Notes under the pieces: model-generated | The model's input: the letters and a program-made list of their open reading frames with translations, nothing else | What the model was told of the DNA's origin: nothing | The model's database searches: none | Position numbers and translations under genes: made by a program | Shown: piece after piece, positions 15,517-29,446 of the stretch | Numbering within the stretch: the stretch's first letter is position 1 | Layout: each line of letters starts with the position of its first letter | Virus record (IMG/VR): IMGVR_UViG_3300017755_000061 | Location: 1 to 29,446 of that record | Strand: one strand, 5' to 3' | Length of the DNA: 29,446 nt | Source: a virus

Positions 15517-15587
15517 GCGATGAAAGTGTTATTGGTTACACGCTAAGCTTCCAGCTTAGAATTGGAGTTCAAATCTACCTCATCGCT
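15517..15587 (+). tRNA. Aberrant tRNA-Gly (anticodon TCC), antisense to the mom 3' end
   Basis: The 71-base sequence folds as follows: a perfect 7-bp acceptor stem (GCGATGA/TCATCGC), a 4-bp D stem (GTGT/ACAC) with GG in an 8-base loop, a 5-bp anticodon stem (CTAAG/CTTAG) with loop CTTCCAG (anticodon TCC), and T loop TTCAAAT. Discriminator is T; CCA is not encoded. Bacterial glycine identity elements are present (G1-C72, C2-G71, G3-C70, U73, C35, C36). It is abnormal: A at position 8, T at 14, G at 38, and a T stem that either carries mismatches at 49-65 and 51-63 with a 3-base variable loop, or has one base missing and a bulge. It is the only plus-strand gene, followed one base later by its own terminator, and bases 15543-15587 also encode the Mom C-terminus. 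Confidence 0.8.
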
Positions 15588-16193
15588 CAAAGCCCTTCTC
15601 TCTTGGAGGGTTTTTTTTGGGTATGGTTTTTTTAAAATTTCACAATCTTTTTTTATTTTTTTTGTTATTGGATAAATATATCTATACTTACTACTACCTT
15701 GTCTTATAATTGTTCCTTTAGGTAATTTATCTTTAGCCCTACTACCATTTATTGAACCAACTGTTCTCGGGTGCATCCACCTACCTTTTATGTAGTATTC
15801 TTTATCTCCTTTAAATTCTCCAGTATAAATCCAATTTGTAGCTTGATAAATAATACCTAAATGTTTTTGACCATTATCAGCAAAAGAAATAATTGCCTTA
15901 ATTAATGGTAAATCTTTTTTAATTAATTTTAAACTTAATGATAAAACTTTACTTGTAATTTCTTGTTTACCATTTAAAGCCATTCTAACTAATTCAACAT
16001 ACTGACCTTGATTTAATTTTAATTGTTTACCTAAATTATTAGATGCACCACTTCCGTATAGAATTACTCCACACCATTCATTTTTATCATTAAATACTGA
16101 ATAACCAAATACATTAACCGGTACACTTTTAGCATAATGAAAGTTTAAACAAGCATATTTTATTGCTTTATATGATGCTTTTTTTAATATCAT
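15543..16193 (-). CDS. mom: Mom-family DNA adenine modification protein
   Basis: This 216-residue protein shows the landmarks of the phage Mu Mom family (GNAT-like fold): FHYAKSVP (residues 18-25), CGVILYGSGASNNLG (41-55), VELVRMAL (66-73), ISFADNGQKHLGIIYQATNW (102-121) followed by IYTG, and GRWMHPRTVGS (137-147). In Mu, Mom turns some adenines into N6-carbamoylmethyladenine, a glycinamide adduct that protects phage DNA from restriction enzymes. The start lies 4 bases inside the ParB-like gene (ATGA-type overlap). The last about 15 residues are encoded antisense to the tRNA-Gly, and the stop (TAG) lies in the tRNA anticodon stem. The exact modification made here is not known. Confidence 0.85.
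   Translation of the reverse strand: MILKKASYKAIKYACLNFHYAKSVPVNVFGYSVFNDKNEWCGVILYGSGASNNLGKQLKLNQGQYVELVRMALNGKQEITSKVLSLSLKLIKKDLPLIKAIISFADNGQKHLGIIYQATNWIYTGEFKGDKEYYIKGRWMHPRTVGSINGSRAKDKLPKGTIIRQGSSKYRYIYPITKKIKKDCEILKKPYPKKTLQERRALSDEVDLNSNSKLEA
15589..15618 (+). terminator. Terminator of the tRNA gene
   Basis: Arms 15589-15598 and 15605-15614 form a 10-bp stem (two G-U pairs, valid only on the plus-strand RNA) with a 6-base loop, running into eight T residues at 15611-15618. It starts two bases after the tRNA discriminator and lies inside mom, so plus-strand transcription of the tRNA would end there. Its orientation is independent support for plus-strand expression. Confidence 0.85.
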
Positions 16194-16753
16194 AATTCGC
16201 CTGCACTTACACTAAAGAATGCACCTTTATACTTCCTATCAATTAATTCTTGTATATCTATTTCTGCTTTCTGTAATTCATCAACATTATTAAAAGTTAT
16301 TTTAATTGTTGCAGGTTTGTTTTTTTCATCATCTGTCAAATCGTCAAAACTAGGTTCCTCTTCATCATAAACTTGGCCAAACTCATAAGGTTGGAATCCC
16401 CAATCTTTTAGAGAATCCATATTAAAATAGTTAGCCAACATATCAAAATCAAACTCCCCTGTATTTTTATTTAGCCTAACATTTAACTCCATCTCAGCAG
16501 CTTCATCAAGCTCGACCTCAACAGTTGGTATTGTATCGTTTCCTAAATCAAACCAAACTTTACATCTTTGATGTCCTCCTACAATTATATCCTTTCGCAT
16601 AGGGTTAGAATTAATTACAACAGGCTCAACACAACCAAATGTCTTCAACGACTTTTTAAGCTGCTTGTATTGCTTATCTGTTAATTGTCTTGGGTTGTAC
16701 TCAGCAGGATTCAACTCTGAGATTTTTCTTTGCTTAATCTTTATAGGCTTCAT
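16190..16753 (-). CDS. ParB/sulfiredoxin-fold protein
   Basis: This 187-residue protein has an N-terminal ParB-like nuclease/nucleotide-binding fold: ISELNPAEYNPRQL (residues 11-24), a helix KQYKQLKKSLKTFGCVEPVV and the signature IIVGGHQRCKVWFDLG (56-71) with GGHQR at 59-63. The C-terminal half is acidic (EFGQVYDEEEPSFDDLTDDE) and ends in a small alpha/beta region (ATIKITFNNVDELQKAEIDI). It lacks an evident helix-turn-helix of a plasmid-type ParB. Such domains are often found beside phage DNA-modification genes. The mom start overlaps its stop by 4 bases, suggesting co-translation. A nucleotide- or DNA-handling partner of Mom is inferred. Confidence 0.8.
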   Translation of the reverse strand: MKPIKIKQRKISELNPAEYNPRQLTDKQYKQLKKSLKTFGCVEPVVINSNPMRKDIIVGGHQRCKVWFDLGNDTIPTVEVELDEAAEMELNVRLNKNTGEFDFDMLANYFNMDSLKDWGFQPYEFGQVYDEEEPSFDDLTDDEKNKPATIKITFNNVDELQKAEIDIQELIDRKYKGAFFSVSAGEL

Positions 16754-17108
16754 ATACTTCTTTTAAATCGTTTACTGTTTGCTTTACACAACTTGCACAA
16801 CCTGACACCTTTTTATTCATTCCAAAGATGTCGTTGTATATGTTAGTCAAGTTCATGTTTTGCTCATGCGTTACTCTATCACCCTCAATACCTTCAAACA
16901 CTCTTTTAAGTATTGACAATTGGTCTTTAGTAATATCTGTTTCTCTTCCCCATTTATCTATTGGGCATTTGGTAAAAGCTATTCTTGCTTTAATCTGCAT
17001 AAAGCAACCACACTTTTTACATTGATTTATTGACTTGCGAAAATGTTTGCACTTATTACAGATTGCAAGTCTATCGTTCAAATTCTTTGTAGTTGCTCTC
17101 AACTTCAT
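16734..17108 (-). CDS. Zinc-ribbon protein, conserved phage type
   Basis: This 124-residue protein has an N-terminal cysteine cluster C17-x2-C20, C29-x2-C32-x-C34 and C48 in TKCPIDKWG, which would bind zinc, followed by a helical region (DQLSILKRVFEGIEG) and a second CASC pair near residue 105. Proteins of this pattern (CxxC, CGCF.q.K, CP..KW) are common in Bacteroidota phages near packaging or ParB genes; the function is unknown to me. It overlaps the sigma-like gene by 38 bases and the ParB-like gene by 20. Confidence 0.7.
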   Translation of the reverse strand: MKLRATTKNLNDRLAICNKCKHFRKSINQCKKCGCFMQIKARIAFTKCPIDKWGRETDITKDQLSILKRVFEGIEGDRVTHEQNMNLTNIYNDIFGMNKKVSGCASCVKQTVNDLKEVYEAYKD

Positions 17109-28793: not shown

Positions 28794-29446
28794 TTAATTT
28801 GTGTGTGCAGATAATCCTGCATTATAGTTTTGTAATAATTCGTCTGCTGATAATTCTATATTGTAAAGTCTTATATCATCAATAAGGTTTTCGTATTGTC
28901 TATTTGCTTGTTTGTCAGTACCAATTACTTTTGCAATAGTATTTGTAACATTACCTGAAGAAGTAAAAGTTTTTGTTGTAAAATTAGCATCACCAGGTTC
29001 TTTTAAATAAAATTTACAATTACCTGAACCATCTCTTGTTACACTAAAATAAAACCAATCACCAACTGAAATTGAGTTACTAATATCTTCAAGTTGACCA
29101 CCCCCTGCATAAGCAACATAAGCCCTAACAACACCACTAGCTAAAGTAGTAATTGCAAATGTTGTTGAAGTTGTTGCTCCCCCCCCGTGTGAATATATTA
29201 CATTTAAACTTGAGCCTTTATTAGTGAAACCATATTTTGCCCAACCATCTATTGAGAAGGCTCCTGCACCAAAATCTAAACTATTATCATCAGCTACTTC
29301 TGCATAACCATCTAAACCTGTCTGATTAAGTGAGTTTTGTCTATCTCGAACTGCGTTACCTAAAATATCTTGTGTAGCATTACTTGGGCTAGGTGGTAAA
29401 AACACACCTGAACCATTTGACCAATTTATCATTCCTAATTGTAAAA
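28794..29446 (-). CDS. LamG/jelly-roll receptor-binding protein, C-terminal part (starts at 919 across the junction)
   Basis: This is the 3' half of the gene starting at 919; the frame is open to the right edge and in register with it. Residues 271-482 of the whole protein lie here, starting near MINWSNGSGVFLPPSPSNAT. The second LamG-like domain spans about 311-470: DGYAEVADDNSLDFGAGAFS, FYFSVTRDGSGNCKFYL and a closing NLIDDIRLYNIELSADELLQ, the standard last strand and helix of the fold. An internal ATG at 29432 would start only the second domain, but the continuous frame makes the longer protein likely. Confidence 0.85.
   Translation of the reverse strand, partial: LQLGMINWSNGSGVFLPPSPSNATQDILGNAVRDRQNSLNQTGLDGYAEVADDNSLDFGAGAFSIDGWAKYGFTNKGSSLNVIYSHGGGATTSTTFAITTLASGVVRAYVAYAGGGQLEDISNSISVGDWFYFSVTRDGSGNCKFYLKEPGDANFTTKTFTSSGNVTNTIAKVIGTDKQANRQYENLIDDIRLYNIELSADELLQNYNAGLSAHTN
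29324..29446. repeat. Terminal direct repeat, right copy (circular overlap)
   Basis: Identical to bases 1-123. Joining the two copies restores one lectin-like gene of 483 codons (919 + 530 bases). Confidence 0.95.

Follow-up and report, generated by a model that had tools for sequence, protein, structure and literature searches.

A glycine tRNA beside the phage gene mom and the possible source of the glycine unit placed on DNA

Mom is a GNAT-fold DNA-modification protein, and that of phage Mu makes N6-carbamoylmethyladenine, in which adenine carries a glycinamide. The donor of this glycine unit is not established in any paper found here, and earlier work assumed an acyl-CoA donor such as glycyl-CoA (PMC7824862). 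The present locus raises the question of why a gene for a glycine tRNA should lie antisense to the end of a mom gene, and whether the tRNA could supply this glycine. A preliminary description, made from the sequence alone, reported that the only plus-strand gene was a tRNA-Gly with its own terminator, that it overlapped about the last 15 codons of mom and kept the bacterial glycine identity elements, and that its T stem was broken around pairs 49-65 and 51-63; it was proposed that the tRNA may be charged with glycine but escape translation, feeding Mom. In this study, these points were examined using tRNA and terminator searches, covariance and protein profile searches, structure prediction and a comparison of related loci.

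The mom locus and its tRNA

The window, i.e. the whole stretch of DNA that was analyzed, is a phage record of 29 446 bases. A 123-bp exact direct terminal repeat (1-123 and 29324-29446) indicates that it is probably a complete phage genome of about 29.3 kb. All of the protein genes that could be annotated, including terminase, portal, replication initiation, ParB_N and Mom, lie on the minus strand. The features around mom are as follows.

15517-15588, plus strand: tRNA-Gly(UCC)-like gene with acceptor GCGATGA/TCATCGC and discriminator U73; CCA is not encoded
15550-15552, plus strand: anticodon UCC, in which C35 and C36 are glycyl-tRNA synthetase identity bases
15564-15579, plus strand: T arm GG-AG-TTCAAAT-CT-A-CC, fully paired around one bulged A
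15577, plus strand: conserved bulged adenine of the T stem
15589-15614, plus strand: intrinsic terminator of the tRNA gene
15543-16193, minus strand: mom, encoding a Mom-family (GNAT-fold) DNA-modification protein of 216 residues with a conserved domain at residues 4-193; the last residues are encoded antisense to the tRNA and its terminator
15951-15953, minus strand: codon of Mom Ser81, equivalent to Ser124 of Mu Mom
16190-16753, minus strand: ParB_N-domain gene (PF02195) directly upstream of mom and overlapping its start
16734-17108: small Cys-rich gene (CxxC, DUF6171-like) just upstream

The observation was confirmed, with one correction. ARAGORN found a single tRNA, tRNA-Gly(tcc), with its anticodon starting at position 34. 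The Rfam tRNA model RF00005 scored it at 40.3 bits against a gathering score of 29 in a restricted scan, although a gathering scan of the whole window missed it, and a covariance model of the Mom-linked elements (R1) matched 15517-15587 with 59.9 bits and a rough E-value of 5e-15. The terminator comprises ten pairs followed by Ts, with three terminator-like sites found against 0.2 expected. The tRNA overlaps the last 15 codons of mom, which was identified by PF25680 (137.7 bits against a cut-off of 27.1, which all 33 aligned relatives also match) and phrog_1384; because the Pfam domain ends at residue 193, the remaining tail is what antisense reading of the tRNA and terminator happens to encode. 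The identity elements G1-C72, C2-G71, G3-C70, U73, C35 and C36 are present, and positions 8 and 14 are A and T as described.

The correction concerns the T stem, which is not randomly broken. The first idea that it had decayed was replaced after the alignment of relatives, which follow the rule GG-xyz-loop-z'y'x'-A-CC; on moving the stem by one register it is fully paired with a single bulged A in its 3' strand. Of 85 unique elements selected near mom by acceptor and anticodon features, 83 were genuine and all 83 have this A; two false elements from a fold-based scan (locus L105 and a wrong one in locus L124) were removed before counting. In 38 elements of less than 80% identity the bulged structure pairs in 98.3% of cells, with 238 cells changed on both sides against 65 in shuffles, and the T stem pairs in 100%.

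Linkage of the element to mom

An absence of linkage between mom and tRNA-Gly in related phages had been named in advance as grounds for rejecting the proposal, and the linkage was instead found to be nearly universal in this Mom clade and far broader than was known from the single sequence. A first scan used only the Mom protein. In the 78 of 80 viral loci with a complete mom 3' end, R1 found exactly one element each, always at that end, and none in the rest of 636 kb. The acceptor pattern alone gave 78 hits at mom ends against 11 in the rest of the 636 kb, with 6.2 expected after shuffling. With looser Mom relatives, the tally by cluster at 70% identity was 20 of 20 (scan 1), 33 of 37 (scan 2), 12 of 26 (bacterial genome contigs) and 2 of 20 (scan 3, a large separate Mom clade), giving 58 of 94 clusters in all, reached without tRNA information. 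The pairing occurs in Bacteroidota, Acidobacteriota, Chloroflexi and Firmicutes records. A search with the Clostridium Mom gave one new locus.

The possibility that this is an ordinary phage tRNA that boosts the translation of glycine codons and happens to sit next to mom is favored by its recognizable tRNA-Gly(UCC) character, by the retention of U33 in the present copy and by the canonical appearance of the copy in Microbacterium phage Appa, which encodes CCA. However, ARAGORN, which uses none of the present patterns, gave 74 hits within 150 nt of mom, of which 58 are tRNA-Gly and 16 are CC-type tRNAs with odd anticodon loops, with no other isotype; further away it found seven of mixed isotype. 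The element also tracks mom across phyla in both orientations. Taken together with the conserved bulge and the loss of translation features in relatives described below, a plain translational role appears to be very unlikely.

The association was also tested in reverse. A DNA pattern for the bulged T arm plus acceptor end (GGNGGTTCGATTCCNACCNNNNCGCTC) hit 97 viral loci, of which 92 encode Mom by HMM and one more (L356) by Pfam; two of the other four lie at contig ends. The same pattern without the bulged A hit 72 loci, three with Mom, and canonical tRNA-Gly(UCC) hit 120 loci, one with Mom. A full-database count of bulged-A tRNA-Gly against Mom was not made. Two bulged-A tRNA-Gly elements (L306:1186-1256 and L326:4078-4148) have no Mom recognized nearby, and the L306 neighbor shows a weak ASCH-domain match. 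One extra adenine in the T stem thus takes the association with Mom from about 4% to about 95%.

The element lies downstream of mom in sense, downstream in antisense as here, or upstream in sense as in Chloroflexi records. Both downstream orientations occur even beside near-identical mom genes and are found in 9 of 20 clusters at 70% identity; the window's 81%-identical relative (L003) has the element in sense. A cis-acting role is therefore unlikely, and a trans-acting RNA is indicated. A fast tree of 131 Mom clusters, which includes clusters found by the tRNA pattern and has many weak forks, needs at least 21 changes between linked and unlinked states, so the pairing has been gained or lost many times. 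In one clear case the pair is separated but on the same contig, with a bulged-A tRNA-Gly(CCC) 1.37 kb downstream of mom (L129:1939-2010).

Isolated phages show the same pairing. Salinibacter phage B2_17 carries an annotated tRNA-Gly, with the bulged A and G33, right after its unrecognized mom. Microbacterium phages Appa and Pickles13 carry an annotated tRNA-Gly(ccc) on the opposite strand just after mom, and Arthrobacter phages BarretLemon and Wyborn have an unannotated tRNA-Gly-like element with a short D loop that overlaps the mom end. The actinophage elements have a regular T stem, so the bulge is not needed everywhere. A mom-adjacent, shortened tRNA-like hairpin set without the bulged A (L421:2500-2590; GCGGGCC...GGCCCGCT with a CC loop) may be an extreme minimal form. 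No element was found near mom in Mu, phiEf11, Listeria LP-125, Aeromonas AS-szw and pAEv1818, Microbacterium WaterT, Polaribacter P12002L, Proteus P2-71, Salmonella SP-031, Enterococcus RioGrande, Bacillus Riggi, Corynebacterium Darwin or Klebsiella RaK2. The dedicated tRNA is therefore an add-on and not a requirement.

A remnant of prophage integration at a host tRNA-Gly gene (attP), or neutral hitch-hiking, was also considered because phages often integrate in tRNA genes. However, no integrase-family hit was obtained among the window proteins scanned against Pfam and PHROGs, the element is full length in either orientation, and 16 of 20 pairs show compensatory change, so the fold is under selection. 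At most 9 nt are shared with the sampled host tRNA-Gly genes; since the records are metagenomic and the real host of this phage is not known, the comparison with host genes does not decide the matter by itself. This explanation is considered to be highly improbable.

A further possibility is that the glycyl-tRNA serves a neighbor such as the ParB_N-domain protein. A same-strand ParB_N neighbor lies beside mom in 88 of 133 Mom clusters, including actinophages and phiEf11, suggesting a three-part cassette. However, 45 of the 133 clusters have no such neighbor within 1.5 kb, 11 of the 17 clusters with an upstream tRNA are among them, and the DNA pattern predicts Mom itself in 93 of 97 loci, which makes this role possible but highly improbable. 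With regard to the small Cys-rich gene, mom of Mu is regulated by the zinc-finger protein Com, although a similarity of role is only a thought.

Identity elements, translation features and the Mom protein

The bacterial glycine identity set has been given as U73, G1-C72, C2-G71, C35 and C36 (PMC9976931). These bases hold in the window and in the linked elements, and G3 is kept in 66 of 68 non-redundant elements. Part of this set was in the search pattern, and the pattern-free support is therefore the ARAGORN isotype result; aminoacylation was not assayed. In the same 68 elements translation features are eroded: only 14 of the 37 with a normal 7-nt anticodon loop keep U33, 29 have an 8-nt loop region, in which 32:38 can pair in 27, the T loop is canonical (TTCRA) in 53 and the D loop holds GG in 52. 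Of 135 unlinked phage tRNA-Gly, 134 have each feature. Mom-linked elements of Deltaproteobacteria/Thermoanaerobaculia records (L099:5593-5665, L100:5605-5677 and L102:5593-5665) have anticodon loops of the type GCACCCC or GCUCCCC, which are unusual even for tRNA-Gly.

A comparison of T-stem defects with those of unlinked phage tRNA-Gly had likewise been called for in the preliminary description. The bulged A is present in 142 of 142 unique Mom-linked elements (83 of 83 among those chosen without a T-stem pattern) and in none of 189 unlinked phage tRNA-Gly or ten host tRNA-Gly; a regular T stem was found in 181 of the 189 phage and all ten host controls. R1 bit scores alone do not separate Mom-linked elements from the best canonical tRNA-Gly of Bacteroidota (55-59 bits), so that the bulge, and not the score, is diagnostic. 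EF-Tu contacts the T stem near this place, as had been pointed out, and poor EF-Tu binding is a fair inference; since affinity was not measured, the position of the bulge does not settle whether binding is weakened. These comparisons support the interpretation first proposed.

The AlphaFold model of this Mom (mean pLDDT 88) matches Mu Mom (PDB entry 8bv8) best, with a Z-score of 19.2 over 173 residues and an r.m.s.d. of 3.4, followed by ordinary GNAT acetyltransferases with Z-scores of about 12. Fem and LFTR structures do not appear among the best fold matches examined, which excludes nothing and leaves a closer kinship to tRNA-dependent GNATs undecided. Entry 8bv8 is the S124A mutant, which is called inactive in its title, and an HMM alignment places the mutated residue opposite Ser81 of the present Mom, which is nearly invariant in 33 relatives.

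A possible glycine donor for Mom

The best explanation, to which a probability of about three in four is assigned, is that the element is a dedicated glycyl-tRNA that serves Mom. In this view, the tRNA is transcribed, here from its own plus-strand unit and elsewhere probably as part of the mom transcript, processed and given CCA by the host. Host glycyl-tRNA synthetase would charge it because G1-C72, C2-G71, G3-C70, C35, C36 and U73 are kept, and the bulged A, together with the eroded anticodon-loop, D-loop and T-loop features, would keep the Gly-tRNA out of translation. Mom would then take the glycyl group from this tRNA, possibly carrying it on Ser81 (Ser124 in Mu), and place it on adenine N6 of phage DNA. 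N6-glycyladenine is an isomer of the Mu product, so that a single intramolecular Smiles-type rearrangement, in which the glycyl amine attacks C6 and N6 is released as the amide nitrogen, would yield the known base without any other donor. Phages without a linked tRNA, such as Mu, would use host Gly-tRNA.

The linkage, the conservation and the predicted fold come directly from the analysis. In contrast, the steps up to exclusion from translation are inferred from sequence and strong comparative evidence, and the transfer to DNA is inferred from linkage, fold and chemistry; no charging, EF-Tu or transfer data were obtained, Mom was not co-folded with tRNA and DNA, and the modified base of these phages was not analyzed, that of Mu alone being known. 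The fullest version, in which an EF-Tu-rejected glycyl-tRNA delivers glycine to Mom for N6 glycylation and rearrangement, and the bulged A sets this tRNA apart from translation and is possibly the handle that Mom reads, is considered to be somewhat more likely than not.

The main rival, which cannot be excluded although it is considered unlikely, is that the RNA acts on or with Mom in another way, as a structural cofactor, a guide, a decoy or a substrate of Mom, with glycylation being incidental. GNAT toxins that act on Gly-tRNA show that GNAT enzymes can bind such tRNAs, the bulged A could be a recognition mark for an adenine-modifying enzyme, and linkage alone does not fix the direction of the chemistry. 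However, a glycine-only identity across very divergent elements while the rest drifts fits use of the amino acid, and the known Mom product contains a glycine unit.

If charged tRNA is the donor, a translation substrate feeds DNA base modification, which would be a new kind of chemistry linking tRNA and genome defense and would show which glycine source Mom needs. Literature searches for a link between tRNA and Mom gave nothing, and a broader search gave only a tRNA review, although the papers searched were incomplete and a prior report cannot be excluded. The analysis also identifies a large class of phage tRNA genes, many of them missed or mis-scored by tRNA finders, whose purpose would not be translation, and the cultured phages BarretLemon, Appa and B2_17 make the proposal directly testable.

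Among known systems, Mu Mom belongs to the same protein family and has the same fold and the same key serine position, but there is no tRNA near mom in Mu. The phage CmoX/CmoY system also gives a DNA base carrying a glycine unit (5cxmC-glycine amide; PMC12783734), but the base is cytosine, and free glycine and ATP ligase chemistry are used without a tRNA. LFTR/Aat and FemX are GNAT-fold enzymes that use charged tRNA instead of acyl-CoA; they modify proteins or peptidoglycan, and none is known that modifies DNA. In Staphylococcus aureus, non-proteinogenic tRNA-Gly is set aside from translation by weak EF-Tu binding and is used by GNAT-fold Fem transferases for cell-wall synthesis. There the acceptor is peptidoglycan, the tRNA is host-encoded and no conserved T-stem bulge is known in it, whereas here the acceptor would be DNA and the tRNA is phage-encoded next to its enzyme.
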